The notes below the pieces were generated by a model. The model made no database searches and was not told the origin of the DNA. It worked only from the letters and a program-made list of their open reading frames with translations. Below, piece after piece: positions 11,772 to 22,520 of a stretch of DNA of 64,000 bases. Both the position numbers and the translations under genes were made by a program. The stretch spans positions 1 through 64,000 of the forward strand of contig JAFGQN010000234.1 of assembly GCA_016935665.1 (NCBI GenBank). The letters run 5' to 3'. This stretch comes from Deltaproteobacteria bacterium. GTDB taxonomy: Bacteria > Myxococcota_A > Polyangia > JAAYKL01. Position 1 is the first letter of the stretch. Every line of letters begins with the position of its first letter.

Positions 11772-14471
11772 ATGGAGCCCACTTTTGAAGCAAAAATACA
11801 GGCGCAGTTCAAATCATTTATTGAAGCGCAAAACAGGCAGTTTGGCACAGACAGTTTTCGAATGGATATTCACTGTCATGACCGCAACAGCGATGTGCCC
11901 GACGAACTGATGGGCCGCATTCTGCGCAGTCGCGAAACCTGGCTGGACACTGACAAGTTAGTGGAACAGCTGAAGGCCCATGGTCAGGACGTGTTTACCA
12001 TAACCAATCACAACAACGCCCGGTCGTGTTATGCCATGCAGGACGCCGGGTACGATGTGATGGTGGGTGCGGAATTTACGTGTAATGTGCCGCAGACCAA
12101 CGATGTGGCCATTCACGTGCTCACCTATGGCTTCACGCCATCGCAGGAGAGCCGCTTGAATCAATTGCGTGTCAATCTGCTGCACTTTCTCGATTATGCG
12201 CGAGCGCACAATCTACCCACGGTTCTGGCACATCCGTTGTTTTTTTACGATCCCAAAAAACGAAGCAACGTGGAACTCATCGAACTGTTCACATTGTTGT
12301 TTGAAAACTTTGAAGTCGTCAACGGGCAGCGGGATCCCCGCCAGGCGCTGCTGATGGTCCATTGGCTGGTGTCACTCACCGAAGAAAAAATAGATGCACT
12401 GGCCAAAAAACACAGTATTGACATCACCCACTTTTCCGACCGCCCCTATCAAAAGGGGATGACCGGTGGCTCCGACTGTCACATGGGGATGTTTGCAGGC
12501 GCCACGGGCACAACATTTCACGTACCGCATCTGCAGCGCATGTTGCGCACACACACGCGCAGCGAACTCGCTCTGAACGCACTGCAGAAAGGACATGTGG
12601 CGCCCTTTGGCACCCTTGCCGGGGGCGAAAAAATGACTGCGGCATTCCTGCACTTTTTCTGTCAGCTTACCATGTATCTCGATGATCCCGGTCTGGTCCG
12701 CATGCTGTTGCACAAAGGCAGCAGTAAAGACAAAATGCTGGCGTTCATCACGCTGAATGCCATCATGGAATTGCGTCGTCACAAGTACACGAGTCGTTTT
12801 TTGCGTACCCTCCACGATGCGCTCAACGGAAAAAAGCCTGGGTTTGTGATTCGGCGCGTCACCAACAAAGCGTATCGTCCGCTGCTTTTGGAGCTGGACA
12901 AAATTTCTGAAGCGCGTCTTTGCAGCGAGACGCAGTTTGTTACGCAACTTGAAGCGTCCATCCCGGCGGTCTTCAACCATCTGACGGGAATTCTCGCTGC
13001 ACGGGTGGAAAACAAGATGAAACAAACGGACAAAAACGGTCGGTCGCTCCTGGCCCATTTGCCGTCTATTCAAGACATTGAAGTCCCCGCCTATCTGCGC
13101 ACATGGTTCCAGAGCATCTCTCAGTCGGCGGAAGAAGGCGGCCGGCAGCTGGATGTGGCATCGTGGTCGGACGGATTGCCCTTTCCGGCACTCGCGGCAT
13201 CGTGCGTTCTGGGTGCCAAATTTGTCAGCGCTAAAGTGCAGCATACCAGTCGCCCCTTTTTAAATGCGTTTGCAAAAGAAACAGGTTCAGAGTGTGCCCC
13301 GGAAAATGTGTTGTGGATGTCGGACACGTTCAACGAAAAAAATGGTGTGGCCAATTCCTTAAAACTGTTTCACGATGCTGCCAAACAGTACCAGTTGCCA
13401 TTTCATTTTGCCATCAGTTCCCATCGCAATCACTCAAATGACCAATTGACCGAATTTGCTGCGACGCTGGCACTGGAAGTCCCCTTTTACCGCGACCAGT
13501 CGTTACGTTTTACTAATATACTGGAGTTGGAAAAAACATTTATGACTCATTCGTGTACACGACTGTTGGTATCCACCGAAGGTCCCATGGGACTGTGCGC
13601 CCTGTACCTGAAAATGGCGTACAACGTTCCCGCGTATTTTTACCTGCACACGGACTGGCTGGAATATGCCCGCCAAAGTCTGCATTTTGAGCCCGCATCC
13701 ATCGATCGACTCAGACGCATGCTGCGCTGGTTTTACAGTCAGTTCGATGGCATTTTTGTTCTGAATTCAGAACATGCCAAATGGCTTACTGGAAAAGACA
13801 TGGAAATTTCAAAAGAAAAAATTCACCTCACCGCCCACTGGTGTAATCCCGCGTTTTTTCCACGGCCGGTGGACAGAAGCACTGTATTCCCAACCAATCA
13901 CACGGGACCAACACTGCTCTATGCGGGACGTCTCAGCAAAGAGAAAGGCGTACTGGATTTGCCGCATGTATTTCACGCTGTCGCTCAAACGCACCCGGAT
14001 GCCCGAATGGCCATCGTTGGCAGTGGTCCAGAAAAAGAAACATTGGAAAGAGAACTCCCAGACGCCATCTTCTTTGAATGGGTCCAAAAATCGGTGCTCG
14101 CCAACATTTACGCCGCCAGCGATATCTTTCTGTTTCCATCCACATTCGATACCTTTGGCAATAGCGTGCTGGAATCTCTCACCAGCGGCACACCGGTCAT
14201 TGCATACAACCGAAAAGGCCCCAAAGATATTATTGAAAACGGGGACAGCGGCTTTTTGGTCAATACCAAAGAGGAGATGATTGCCCGAACCCGACTATTG
14301 CTGGACGACGAAACGCTGCTGCAAAAAATGCGGCTGAACGCACGCAAACGGGCAGCGGATTTCAAGCGGGAGAACATCATCCTCAAAATGATGCAGGACA
14401 TGAATATGACACCGCCCAACCTCAAAAAAAGTACGTCTTCGCTAAGATCACTCCGTCAAAAGTCCGCATAG
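11772..14471 (+). CDS. PHP phosphoesterase-glycosyltransferase group 1 (GT4) fusion
   Basis: 899 residues with two recognisable enzymes. Residues about 35-260 form a PHP metallo-phosphoesterase domain (MDIHCHDRNSDVPDEL, ITNHNNARS, VGAEFT, HPLFF, GGSDCHMGMFAG), with the usual metal-binding His/Asp clusters. A region of about 250 residues without an obvious family follows. The C-terminal part, about residues 515-880, is a GT-B glycosyltransferase with TLLYAGRLSKEKGVLDL, AIVGSGPE and FLFPSTFDTFGNSVLESL ahead of a TPVIAYNRKGP loop, the nucleotide-sugar site of GT4 enzymes. Start ATG 11772 has AAGGGTGA upstream. A bifunctional role, glycosyl transfer plus removal of a phosphate, is plausible but is inference. 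Confidence 0.88.
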   Translation: MEPTFEAKIQAQFKSFIEAQNRQFGTDSFRMDIHCHDRNSDVPDELMGRILRSRETWLDTDKLVEQLKAHGQDVFTITNHNNARSCYAMQDAGYDVMVGAEFTCNVPQTNDVAIHVLTYGFTPSQESRLNQLRVNLLHFLDYARAHNLPTVLAHPLFFYDPKKRSNVELIELFTLLFENFEVVNGQRDPRQALLMVHWLVSLTEEKIDALAKKHSIDITHFSDRPYQKGMTGGSDCHMGMFAGATGTTFHVPHLQRMLRTHTRSELALNALQKGHVAPFGTLAGGEKMTAAFLHFFCQLTMYLDDPGLVRMLLHKGSSKDKMLAFITLNAIMELRRHKYTSRFLRTLHDALNGKKPGFVIRRVTNKAYRPLLLELDKISEARLCSETQFVTQLEASIPAVFNHLTGILAARVENKMKQTDKNGRSLLAHLPSIQDIEVPAYLRTWFQSISQSAEEGGRQLDVASWSDGLPFPALAASCVLGAKFVSAKVQHTSRPFLNAFAKETGSECAPENVLWMSDTFNEKNGVANSLKLFHDAAKQYQLPFHFAISSHRNHSNDQLTEFAATLALEVPFYRDQSLRFTNILELEKTFMTHSCTRLLVSTEGPMGLCALYLKMAYNVPAYFYLHTDWLEYARQSLHFEPASIDRLRRMLRWFYSQFDGIFVLNSEHAKWLTGKDMEISKEKIHLTAHWCNPAFFPRPVDRSTVFPTNHTGPTLLYAGRLSKEKGVLDLPHVFHAVAQTHPDARMAIVGSGPEKETLERELPDAIFFEWVQKSVLANIYAASDIFLFPSTFDTFGNSVLESLTSGTPVIAYNRKGPKDIIENGDSGFLVNTKEEMIARTRLLLDDETLLQKMRLNARKRAADFKRENIILKMMQDMNMTPPNLKKSTSSLRSLRQKSA

Positions 14472-16528: not shown

Positions 16529-17716
16529 CTACACTTTTTTTGAAATACAATCGGAACAGAGAGAGGGTTTGGTCCAGACGCCCAGTTTTACATGGAGCTG
16601 ATGTTCTTTGGTCCAGACGATTTCCTTGCCACAGGAACCGCACTGCAGTTTTTCGGTTTTAGCCTCTTCCATGAACTGGTGACATTCATCGCACATGCGC
16701 ACAGGGGGCTTCTCGGCGCCAAATCCCCGCAAAACGGAACCCAGTTGCATTTCCGGACTCCAGGTCCAGGTATTTTCGCAACCGTCGTGCTTGCATGCCA
16801 CTTCTTTAGGAGCATACTCCGCCACTTTTTCCTGACAGGTAGCACACATGCGCCTGGGCGATTTGGTTTTCCCCTTTAACTTGCCTTCCAGCTGCATCCA
16901 TCTGGACCAGTGAACGGTTTCCTTGCATCCTGGCACTCGACACTTCAGCGTTTTGTCTTTTAAATCCTTGTACAAGGCATGACAGCGTTCACACATTCGG
17001 CCTGGGGCGTCCTCCCCTTTGAGTCTGGCCTCGATTTGCGCAAATTTGGGCCACCACCAGGTGTTGTCGCAGACGTTGACGCGACACGGCAATTCCACAT
17101 CCTCAAGAGAATTGAAAATTTCGGTACAGCGTTCACACATGCGCCTGGGCGGACCGCTTTTTCCTTTGGCAGCCGACTCCAGCTGCATTCCACGGGTCCA
17201 CTCCCAGCTGTTTTCACATCCCTCAATGCGACAGGGAACATGGCGATTTTTAAAGCCGCGATACTTTTCGTAACACGCATCGCACATTCTTGAGGGTGTT
17301 TTCCCATCTGACGCCAGAATTTCCTTCCCCGCCAGAGTCCAGGTGTTAGTGCAGCCTTTGACGCGGCAGCGCACTTCCCGGCTTTCAATGTCTTTGGCCT
17401 CATTGGCGCAGGACTCGCACAATCGGCCATGGGGCGGCTCGGTGTGTCCGCGCTTGGCGGCGCCCAATCTGGCGCTTTTAGTCCATGTCCAGGTGTTGGT
17501 ACACCCTTCGCGAGAGCAGGGTATCTGCATGTCCTCCAGCTCATTGAATTTGACAAAGCAGGACGGACACATGCGCTGAGGGGCGCCTTCCCGATTGTCC
17601 CGCATCCAGCGAACCTGCTCCTCGCCACTCCAGACCCATGTGTTTTTACACTCCCGTATGCGACACGGCAGTGTTTTGTCCTTCATTCCACTAAAAAAAG
17701 ATGCCTTTAACGCCAA
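16529..17716 (-). CDS. Eight-unit zinc-ribbon-like repeat protein
   Basis: 395 residues made almost entirely of eight tandem units of about 48 residues. Each unit has C-x4-C-x2-(T/S)-W-x-W at its start and R-(M/L)-C-x2-C about 25 residues later; four Cys per unit would bind one zinc ion. Examples are PCSREGCTNTWTWTK and PCRIEGCENSWEWTR, each followed later by RMCxxC. Unit 3 has lost the second Trp, unit 6 has TVHW, and unit 8 begins with a tight CxxC instead of Cx4C. Start is TTG 17716, supported by GAGGGG 8 nt upstream; ATG 17686 lacks such a site. It lies 16 nt after mtaB and so is likely the third gene of the lpxB-mtaB operon. Binding of RNA, DNA or protein is possible; I do not recognise the family. 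Confidence 0.88.
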   Translation of the reverse strand: MALKASFFSGMKDKTLPCRIRECKNTWVWSGEEQVRWMRDNREGAPQRMCPSCFVKFNELEDMQIPCSREGCTNTWTWTKSARLGAAKRGHTEPPHGRLCESCANEAKDIESREVRCRVKGCTNTWTLAGKEILASDGKTPSRMCDACYEKYRGFKNRHVPCRIEGCENSWEWTRGMQLESAAKGKSGPPRRMCERCTEIFNSLEDVELPCRVNVCDNTWWWPKFAQIEARLKGEDAPGRMCERCHALYKDLKDKTLKCRVPGCKETVHWSRWMQLEGKLKGKTKSPRRMCATCQEKVAEYAPKEVACKHDGCENTWTWSPEMQLGSVLRGFGAEKPPVRMCDECHQFMEEAKTEKLQCGSCGKEIVWTKEHQLHVKLGVWTKPSLCSDCISKKV

Positions 17717-17732: not shown

Positions 17733-19082
17733 TCAAATGCGTTCTAAAAATGGGCTTTTATCATACTGAATCGCTTTTGCACATAGAGAATCGGGCGCAT
17801 CGACGCGACGATACAACTCAACATCCACCAGATCCCCAGGCGTCATGGCCTGCTGGAAGGAAACCTGTAAAAAAGTATCCGTGATTCCCCGCCTGGCCTC
17901 TTCCACCAGCACCTCGCAAGTGTTGCCCACCATTGACGCACGATACGCGTCGTGCAACGTATCGCCCAGCAACCGCAGGCGGCGCACCCGTTCTTTGGCA
18001 ATGGTACGATTTTCGCCCCAGGTTTTAGCGGCAATGGTGCCAGGTCTTCTGGAGTACGAAAACCCGTGAACGTATGCCACCTTTGAAATCTCAATCACCT
18101 TTAGTGTATTTTCAAATGCCCCATCGTCTTCGGTGGGGAAGCCGCATATCACATCGGTACCCACAGCGATTTGAGGAATCTTCGCCTTTGCCATCTGCAC
18201 CTTTTGCAACCACTCCGTTGCGGTGTAGCCGCGGCACATGTCGTCAAGCACACGGTCGTCCCCAGCCTGCAGTGGCATGTGAAGATGCCGGCAAATCCTG
18301 CCATTGGCCGCCATCACGTCAATAAGCGCTTCATCCACGCTCCAGGGTTCGATGGAGCTCAGACGAATTCGCCCCGGGGCAAACAGCGTTGCCGCTTCAT
18401 CGAGCAGATTTGCGATGGACGGCTGCCCTGGCAAATCCTTTCCCCAGACGCCAATCTGCACCCCGGTAAATACCAGTTCTCTGGCGCCGCTCTCTTTCAT
18501 GGCCGTTACCTGACGCAGCACCATCTCTTTGGGCATGGACTGTTCGGGCCCTCTGGCTTTGGGAACAATGCAATAGGAACAGTTATGGGTACAGCCGTTT
18601 TGAATTTTCAACAGCGCTCGGGTACGTCCCTGCACATTGGCCACAGACTGGAACACTGCGGCATCCCCACTGGCAAAATAGTCGTACACCCGCGATTTGG
18701 TGGATGGCAGCACCTCTGTATTCGAATTCTCTTTGGCAAATCGGTTCAACCAGCCTGCCAGTTCCACCGGACTGGTGGCGCCCCCGCCCACCGACAGTAC
18801 CCGGTCATCGAACGCCTTTGCAAACTCACTAAATGCCGATACGGCGCACCCGGTGAACAGCAGCTTTCCATTGGGGTTCTGTCTGAGTAACCGGCGCGCC
18901 GTTTTTTTACAGTCCCGCTCCGCTTCGGTAGTGACGCAACACGTGTTGACTACAAAAACATCCGCATCGTCCTCGCCCCCAATGGTTGCCAACGCCGGAT
19001 CGAGATGCGCCTCCAGCACCGAACTGTCCGCCTGATTGGCGCGGCACCCTACGGTATGAACATAGACCTTTATTTTGTCCAT
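17733..19082 (-). CDS. mtaB: tRNA threonylcarbamoyladenosine methylthiotransferase MtaB
   Basis: A radical-SAM methylthiotransferase that adds a methylthio group to t6A37 of ANN-decoding tRNAs. The N-terminal UPF0004 domain keeps its three cysteines (VGCRAN, NTCCVT, FTGCAV), the second iron-sulfur site. The radical-SAM cluster motif is CTHNCSYC, followed by ELVFTGVQIGVWG and HMPLQAGDDRVLDDMCRGYT. A TRAM-like region ends the protein. The overall layout fits MtaB rather than MiaB or RimO. ATG 19082 has AAGGA at good spacing; the 10-codon extension to 19112 lacks one. Located between lpxB and the zinc-ribbon repeat gene on the same strand. Confidence 0.93.
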   Translation of the reverse strand: MDKIKVYVHTVGCRANQADSSVLEAHLDPALATIGGEDDADVFVVNTCCVTTEAERDCKKTARRLLRQNPNGKLLFTGCAVSAFSEFAKAFDDRVLSVGGGATSPVELAGWLNRFAKENSNTEVLPSTKSRVYDYFASGDAAVFQSVANVQGRTRALLKIQNGCTHNCSYCIVPKARGPEQSMPKEMVLRQVTAMKESGARELVFTGVQIGVWGKDLPGQPSIANLLDEAATLFAPGRIRLSSIEPWSVDEALIDVMAANGRICRHLHMPLQAGDDRVLDDMCRGYTATEWLQKVQMAKAKIPQIAVGTDVICGFPTEDDGAFENTLKVIEISKVAYVHGFSYSRRPGTIAAKTWGENRTIAKERVRRLRLLGDTLHDAYRASMVGNTCEVLVEEARRGITDTFLQVSFQQAMTPGDLVDVELYRRVDAPDSLCAKAIQYDKSPFLERI

Positions 19083-19174
19083 GACGGTTTCCTTTCCATC
19101 CCCCATTCCCAAGGGCCCTTATCATAAATCGACAGGGCGCCAAAGGAAATCCCGCACCCGCACGGGAGCCCGAT

Positions 19175-20456: not shown

Positions 20457-22520
20457 CTACTTCACCTCGCCGCCATCAATAATCGTCCAACCATCACGAT
20501 TGATTAGCGTTTGGCGAGCGTCCGCAGCCGCGCCGCTGCTGTACTGGATGCCGGTGGCACCCAAAGATATGCCTGGCTGAACGGGCTGAGCCGACCAGCC
20601 GACAAGCAGCGCGTTGTAGTTTGGGGTGGAAAGGCTTGAGTAATTGAACACATCTGTCATGTTCAGCACTGCAGATATGTTCCATGCGGACAAATCCTGG
20701 TCAAACAGTTCGGCGGCCAAAAACAGGCTGTTCATATTCGTGACAGCCGAAGTGTCCCAGCCGCTGAGGTCCTGGTTGAAGTTGTGTGCGTGATAAAACA
20801 TAAAAGACATATCCGTTACATTGGATGTATCCCATTTGCCAATATCCTGATTAAATGCCTCGTTCATACCGAACATGTTCGCCATATTCGTAACATTGGA
20901 TGTATTCCAGTCACCAATGTCCTGGTTGAATCTGTGGTAATCGAGCGTAACGCCAAACCGTTCTGCGGTCTCTGAAAACATTCCACTCATATCCGTCACG
21001 CCGGATGTGTCCCAGTAGCTTATGTCAATGTTGAATTGGTTGGCATCCCCAAACATGTAGCTCATGGTGGTTACTTTAGATGTATCACGGAAGACGGAGT
21101 TATTGAATGATGAGGCATGCCAGAACATCTTTGCCATATTGATTACGTTGGAAGTATCCCATGAGTACAGGGACGCATTAAAATTGTACGCATGCATGAA
21201 CATCTTTTTCATATTTGTTACCGTCGACGTATTCCAGGCTTCAATGGACCTGTTGAATGATTCTGCAAACCCAAACATTCCTTCCATATCTGTCACCCGG
21301 GATGTATCCCAGCTCTCGACGTTCCCATTGAATGTGGTTGCCCCGTGAAACATATATTTCATATTCGTTACATTGGATGTATCCCAATTCTCAATGTTGT
21401 AATTAAATGCGCTCGCTTTAAAAAACATAAAAGTCATATCGGTAATCGTGCGGGTGTCCCATTCAGAAAAGCTTTTTTTGTTTGGCGCCAACGTTTCGCA
21501 AAAAGCAAAGGCTCCAGACAAACTGGTGGTTTCGGTCAGATTCGGCGTATCGTCGGCATTGATTTGCAGATTTCGGCATCCTGCAAACTGCAAATCGGTA
21601 GAGCCCAGTTTAAAACCATTTCCCCATTGTTCAATTTCCACAATTTTCCGTTCATCCCCGACGAAATTATTGGCGACAACATCCTCCCAAAACAATGTGT
21701 CAGCAAAGGCAGCGTATACATCGCCATCGTCATTCCAGATGTCTTCTACTGAAACAGACTCTGGCAAAAAGCGCCAGCCTGTAATTGCCCCCCTGATGAT
21801 TACGGTATAAACAGCCTCTTCATTGTAACGGGCATCATTGAGATACGAATGTGTTTTTTCCGGTGCATCCCAGCGCTGAATCGTATCGGAGGTGCCATCG
21901 CCCCAATCCACTGTGAAATCATAGACACCATTTTTGACCAGCGGCAATTGAATTCGTCCCGGCCCACTAGCTCCGGAATAGGACGGTTGCCATCTGGAAA
22001 GAAAAATGTTCATCGCTTCGTTATCCGTAGACGCTATAGATCCCGTATCGGTATCGGATTCAGTGTCCGTTGGTATGCTGATTTCAGCAATCGTACTCGA
22101 ACCGGAGTCCGTATCAAATTCTGTATCCGTACCGGCCAAATGTACGCCTGTATCGAAAACAGAATCAGTACCAGTCCCTGTCCCTGTACCTGTACCTGTA
22201 CCTGTACCTGTACCAGCACTCCCCGTATCTGTGTCTGCATCTGTAACTATACCTGTATCTTTATCTGTATCGTTATCTGTTTGTGCACCTGTATCTGTTT
22301 CGGTTTGAAACCGGGTTTCGGGATAAAATTCGGACGCATAGTAGCAATTGAGACTGATACACACTCCGGCTTTGCCGGATACCCGACAATCTTCATCAAT
22401 GAGACAATCAGTGCCGTTGTCGATATTGCAACCTGCAAAACTGACAAAAAAGAAAATTAGAACAGGAGTAAACCCACATATCGAAATGGATTGTGTAAAT
22501 CGTTTCTTTTCAAAACGCAT
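20457..22520 (-). CDS. BspA/DUF285-repeat surface lipoprotein
   Basis: 687 residues. A signal peptide ends in a lipobox (VSFAGC), then comes a small Cys-rich segment (CLIDEDCRVSGKAGVC) and an Asp/Thr/Gly linker of about 100 residues, including a Gly-Thr run. A compact region with VDWGDGTSDTIQRWD follows, resembling the start of BspA-type (DUF285) proteins. About nine copies of a 23-26 residue repeat then occur, with the core WDTSNVTNMxxMFxxAxxFN. Such proteins are surface-exposed leucine-rich-repeat relatives involved in adhesion in other bacteria. Its ATG sits 1 nt after the stop of the caspase gene, with GGGGGG upstream, so the two are translationally coupled. Its stop lies within the dciA fragment junction. 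Confidence 0.92.
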   Translation of the reverse strand: MRFEKKRFTQSISICGFTPVLIFFFVSFAGCNIDNGTDCLIDEDCRVSGKAGVCISLNCYYASEFYPETRFQTETDTGAQTDNDTDKDTGIVTDADTDTGSAGTGTGTGTGTGTGTGTDSVFDTGVHLAGTDTEFDTDSGSSTIAEISIPTDTESDTDTGSIASTDNEAMNIFLSRWQPSYSGASGPGRIQLPLVKNGVYDFTVDWGDGTSDTIQRWDAPEKTHSYLNDARYNEEAVYTVIIRGAITGWRFLPESVSVEDIWNDDGDVYAAFADTLFWEDVVANNFVGDERKIVEIEQWGNGFKLGSTDLQFAGCRNLQINADDTPNLTETTSLSGAFAFCETLAPNKKSFSEWDTRTITDMTFMFFKASAFNYNIENWDTSNVTNMKYMFHGATTFNGNVESWDTSRVTDMEGMFGFAESFNRSIEAWNTSTVTNMKKMFMHAYNFNASLYSWDTSNVINMAKMFWHASSFNNSVFRDTSKVTTMSYMFGDANQFNIDISYWDTSGVTDMSGMFSETAERFGVTLDYHRFNQDIGDWNTSNVTNMANMFGMNEAFNQDIGKWDTSNVTDMSFMFYHAHNFNQDLSGWDTSAVTNMNSLFLAAELFDQDLSAWNISAVLNMTDVFNYSSLSTPNYNALLVGWSAQPVQPGISLGATGIQYSSGAAADARQTLINRDGWTIIDGGEVK
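22174..22215. repeat. Hexanucleotide tandem repeat (CCTGTA)n in the lipoprotein gene
   Basis: About six to seven tandem copies of CCTGTA or CCTGTC encode the Gly-Thr run of the linker. The unit is 6 bp, so changes in copy number keep the frame and only alter linker length. Further Asp-Thr codon repeats flank it. Confidence 0.85.

Follow-up and report, generated by a model that had tools for sequence, protein, structure and literature searches.

A single gene in the window, by which we mean the whole 64,000-nucleotide stretch of Deltaproteobacteria bacterium DNA analysed here, encodes a protein built from end to end of eight regular four-Cys zinc-type units. A new finding is that, on sequence grounds, the architecture of eight units is old and fixed; it can be read as a register-locked tandem form of a known domain family for which no function has been described, and is apparently uncharacterised. 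The original prediction of such units over the whole protein was borne out both by comparison of 28 orthologues, in which Cys occupies each of the four positions in at least 221 of 223 units, and by shuffling. The pattern Cx4C-x20-32-CxxC occurs seven times in the array protein against a mean of 0.16 (maximum 5) in 20,000 protein shuffles, and a 14-residue junction between units also occurs seven times, against a mean of 0.026 (maximum 2) in 20,000 protein shuffles. Since the shuffles never gave the unit or junction counts of the protein, the pattern is not due to chance.

The array gene and its units

The open reading frame is a real gene, backed by orthologues, with an RBS-like GAGGGG located 8 nt before the TTG codon. 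The TTG start is probably correctly assigned, because the N-terminus LKASLFSGLKDK... is common to the array protein and its relatives. There is one copy of the gene in the 8.16-Mb genome, and the 32 Cys of the 395-aa product make up the eight four-Cys units:

16529-17716, minus strand: array gene, 395 aa, TTG start at 17716, stop codon at 16529-16531
17534-17680, minus strand: unit 1, residues 13-61, CRIREC...CPSC, 20.1 bits against zf_Tbcl when scored alone
17384-17533, minus strand: unit 2, residues 62-111, CSREGC...CESC
17249-17383, minus strand: unit 3, residues 112-156, CRVKGC...CDAC, with the shortest inner loop
17102-17248, minus strand: unit 4, residues 157-205, CRIEGC...CERC
16958-17101, minus strand: unit 5, residues 206-253, CRVNVC...CERC
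16811-16957, minus strand: unit 6, residues 254-302, CRVPGC...CATC
16658-16810, minus strand: unit 7, residues 303-353, CKHDGC...CDEC
16532-16657, minus strand: unit 8, residues 354-395, CGSC...CSDC, with zf_Tbcl-like CxxC spacing and the best PF13451 stretch (356-393)

Units 1-7 have the form CxxxxC...CxxC and unit 8 the form CxxC...CxxC. A unit had been described as about 48 residues long with TWxW and RMCxxC motifs; actual lengths are 42-51 residues and both motifs are present in most units, but TWxW reads TWTL in unit 3, TVHW in unit 6 and IVW in unit 8, and, for RMCxxC, unit 2 starts with RLC and unit 8 with SLC.

The protein appears to be uncharacterised so far. It had no match in NCBIfam and no significant match in PHROGs, and a PDB sequence search returned weak matches only, to zinc-finger proteins, RPB12 and a sulfhydryl oxidase. 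The plasmids, phages and viral contigs searched gave no relative, so nothing suggests that the gene is mobile or phage-borne.

Relationship to the zf_Tbcl family

Among the libraries searched there is no named family for the eight-unit array, so the earlier statement that no described family covers it stands, but a related family does exist. This is the Pfam family PF13451 (zf_Tbcl), a probable treble clef domain, and a literature search returned no paper on PF13451 or zf-trcl and none giving PF13451 a function; other literature searches likewise yielded nothing relevant. The whole array protein scores 24.4 bits against a gathering cut-off of 24, with the best stretch in unit 8, the only unit to clear the cut-off, and marginally so. 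Among 32 single units from several orthologues, seven match zf_Tbcl at E<=0.1, which makes it the top family, mostly with weak scores. A profile built from the units, the search that the original prediction had proposed, revealed the relation when aligned to canonical zf_Tbcl domains of related genomes (hhalign 95.7%, E 8.5e-9, 42 columns). By these comparisons the array units are distant zf_Tbcl relatives of marginal membership. Both have the same four-Cys order in a strand-knuckle-strand-helix-CxxC layout, an aromatic-x-aromatic strand and a conserved Gln in the helix. The canonical proteins found here carry a single CxxC...CxxC domain, whereas the array has seven CxxxxC units and fuses eight units in tandem with fixed junctions, most of them under the cut-off.

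The suggestion that the altered first Cys pair of unit 8 caps the array probably does not hold. CxxC is the spacing of the zf_Tbcl parent, and this form is C-terminal in all lineages examined apart from f7, whose genomes are the largest of any family here. Unit 8 is probably not a decayed cap but the ancestral form, and because its spacing matches that of zf_Tbcl, we infer that the CxxxxC of units 1-7 is derived.

The genome also has a canonical single zf_Tbcl protein (L116:2385-3431; G000:C37, about 82.9-83.9 kb), in which six EYRSPAF-type motifs separate a second CxxC pair from the zf_Tbcl domain. Similar YR[SA]P[AG]F repeats are found in its relatives L100 and L101.

Predicted fold and unit packing

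AlphaFold2 modelling of the array protein from 29 sequences (mean pLDDT 91.2, pTM 0.58) gives a hairpin-helix-loop-helix in 8/8 units, with the second CxxC starting the second helix. Of the zinc ribbon originally proposed, the four-Cys zinc-type unit remains, but the predicted fold is probably of the treble clef type, with zinc binding likewise predicted. Foldseek found no significant match in the PDB (best E 0.063), and its top rows are tandem C2H2 arrays (E 0.06-0.5).

Junctions, counted between a unit's final Cys and the opening Cys of its successor, are 14 residues long in 304 parsed cases, plus 39 cases between units 7 and 8. Outside f7 essentially all junctions have this length, apart from a last junction of 15 in f8; a few odd counts are artefacts of the parsing, which is less clean for f7, where some ligand positions hold His. 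Within units, by contrast, the spacing varies between 23 and 215 residues, and insertions of 77-215 residues occur inside units only. A constant junction with insertions confined within units suggests a phase-locked rigid rod with fixed unit packing, not flexible beads on a string. The pTM of 0.58, which leaves the relative orientation of units uncertain, counts against this rod.

Distribution, unit number and descent

The array has matches in 60 genomes out of a sample of 144, mostly of the source's class. At phylum level there are at least 14 matches among 379 genomes, every one in the window's class; as few candidates were scored in each genome, this is an undercount. A further scan, with two peptide patterns over 84,980 species, picked out MAGs of Myxococcota/Deltaproteobacteria as well as Lentisphaerota, among them Oligosphaera ethanolica DSM 24202. 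With two patterns this distribution is a lower bound, and families f4 and f7, known from the sample of 144, are not among the matches of the scan. Within the phylum of O. ethanolica, 8 of 195 sampled genomes have the array. Altogether, both the Lentisphaerota and several families within one Myxococcota class encode the array in a single gene. Unit number, which the original prediction had marked for comparison among relatives, is eight in f1 (the window's family), f8, f15, f24, f4 and Lentisphaerota, and mostly six in f7.

In the tree, Lentisphaerota and Myxococcota sequences are fully separate and host families cluster, which fits long vertical descent within each phylum; between the two phyla, either one old transfer or deep ancestry would fit. 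The nearest unit from another family lies at the same position for 91 of 223 units (permutation mean 27.9, maximum 47), and for 73 of 196 when unit 8 is left out (permutation mean 27.8, maximum 51). The persistence of this position-specific signal across families shows that the array was inherited whole.

Gene neighbourhood

The array gene follows a tRNA-modification gene:

17733-19112, minus strand: mtaB (tRNA t6A37 methylthiotransferase family; TIGR01579, TIGR00089), upstream, co-oriented neighbour

This mtaB scores 337 bits with TIGR01579, just under the cut-off of 357, and 326 bits with TIGR00089, above the cut-off. The array TTG lies 15 nt past its stop codon in the same orientation, and the two genes are probably in the same transcript. 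From this linkage the original prediction took a hint of a role in RNA binding, and the array protein might accordingly assist MtaB in t6A37 methylthiolation of tRNA. Adjacency does recur in 8 of the 10 array-bearing f1 genomes, but in the other two (G007 and G009) mtaB is present away from the array, four further genomes of the family (G003, G010, G012 and G013) have mtaB without an array, and the neighbourhoods surveyed in other families and in Lentisphaerota show no such adjacency. An accessory role to MtaB is on this evidence highly improbable.

Neighbours differ elsewhere. In f4 the array is divergent from trigger factor-clpP-clpX and convergent with a MutT-type Nudix gene; in most f7 genomes uppS/cdsA and pspA are near it; in most Lentisphaerota a Pal-like lipoprotein gene and then a MutT-type Nudix gene lie by it. 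The MutT-type Nudix gene (L048:8540-8947; L064:9208-9690), one or two genes from the array in f4 Myxococcota and Lentisphaerota, and clpX, also in two lineages, are the sole repeat neighbours across lineages, and their recurrence may be chance. Among the neighbourhoods surveyed we found no gene partner general to all array lineages, and for that reason the array probably has a general target in the cell rather than sharing a pathway with MtaB.

In f8 (L041-L045) the array gene is downstream of and co-oriented with an arsenic-efflux-type transporter gene (NF037962), with clpX close. Together with the high Cys content, this adjacency would suit a zinc store or metal buffer that holds eight zinc ions on 32 Cys and then releases them. 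Such a role is improbable: the transporter was not seen beside the array in lineages other than f8, units retain position-specific identity, and conservation extends beyond Cys to many other positions, to the predicted fold and to the length of the junction, which is unlike metallothioneins.

Two other reading frames of the window were inspected by eye. An 899-aa ORF (11772-14471) seemingly combines an N-terminal PHP-type phosphoesterase with a C-terminal glycosyltransferase, and 20457-22520 encodes a likely lipoprotein with BspA-like (DUF285-type) repeats after a long Thr/Asp/Gly-rich linker.

Lineage-specific additions and possible function

All 12 of 12 f7 proteins have Arg/Gly-containing N-terminal extensions and poly-basic tracts, and of the 5 f4 proteins checked, 4 carry a basic tract within an insertion of unit 7. 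Net charge is positive in 28/28 orthologues measured (+3 to +26). Arg/Gly-rich regions are abundant among RNA-binding proteins, as described for eukaryotic proteins (PMC8562343).

Our leading, still tentative reading is that the array is a rod of eight treble-clef-type units that binds nucleic acid, RNA likelier than DNA. A zf_Tbcl-like domain would have been tandemly duplicated into the eight-unit array, each hairpin-helix-loop-helix unit holding one zinc by its four Cys. The constant 14-residue junction would make neighbouring units pack in one repeating geometry, giving a rigid, mildly basic cytosolic rod whose repeating surface may bind nucleic acid, more probably RNA, in a structural or chaperone-like role. 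Here we infer zinc occupancy, rigidity, cytosolic location and ligand alike. The rod draws on Cys conservation, the pLDDT of 91.2, zf_Tbcl homology, the fixed junction and the position-specific units. Nucleic acid as ligand is favoured by the net positive charge with the f7 basic tracts and Arg/Gly extensions, and by neighbours such as mtaB, trigger factor and clpX, which are genes of translation and quality control; the RNA-binding idea is better backed by the Arg/Gly-rich, poly-basic segments of f7 than by mtaB. Counted against it are the lack of a significant PDB match by Foldseek and the array core, whose net charge is modest (+3 to +5) for several members. Both Trp of the unit, moreover, share a strand and are equivalent to the Phe-x-Phe of zf_Tbcl, and may for that reason be buried core rather than base-stacking residues.

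All Lentisphaerota arrays aligned (L089-L096, L060-L070) have a C-terminal SGNH-fold domain, which the window protein lacks; PF13472 is over the cut-off in 4/4 scanned, and Foldseek relates the domain to AlAXEase 7ddy (E 1.3e-9, TMt 0.80). It shares the fold of SGNH/GDSL hydrolases but has lost their nucleophile: the catalytic Ser of GDS is Glu or Asp (GDE/GDD) in 13/13 sequences, and the block V His is not in all. Given this replacement, the domain is probably non-catalytic, a probable pseudoenzyme. Its fusion to the array gives no hint of nucleic acid, which also counts against the nucleic-acid-binding rod, and it fits the main rival, a somewhat less probable one in our judgement, namely a protein-protein scaffold in which the rod docks several partners or multimerises and carries cargo that differs by lineage (disordered tails in Polyangia families, the pseudo-SGNH domain in Lentisphaerota). 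Fixed junctions, long disordered insertions within units (f4, f7 and some Lentisphaerota) and gene neighbours that change between lineages are all consistent with a scaffold. Basic tracts, however, favour a polyanion, and a partner gene conserved across lineages is absent from the neighbourhoods, bar the weak MutT-type Nudix and clpX vicinity.

Comparison with C2H2 arrays

The array is notable in that unit count and spacing are conserved in one Myxococcota class and in Lentisphaerota, and the protein is small and easy to test. Beyond a nucleic-acid-binding rod in general, it could belong to an undescribed class of bacterial RNA- or DNA-reading rods, with treble-clef units register-locked like C2H2 fingers and unit-specific surfaces reading a long target, kept at eight in two phyla; we consider this unlikely.

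Long zinc-finger arrays are a eukaryotic hallmark. Membership of the C2H2 arrays is ruled out, each unit having four Cys and not Cys2His2, and no significant sequence homology to the eukaryotic C2H2 arrays was detected. Like those of CTCF and TFIIIA, the bacterial array sets small zinc units in tandem with short constant linkers; unlike them, it is Cys4 and has an extra helix. If all its units do hold zinc and are register-locked, it would be a native prokaryotic architectural counterpart of the eukaryotic zinc-finger arrays.
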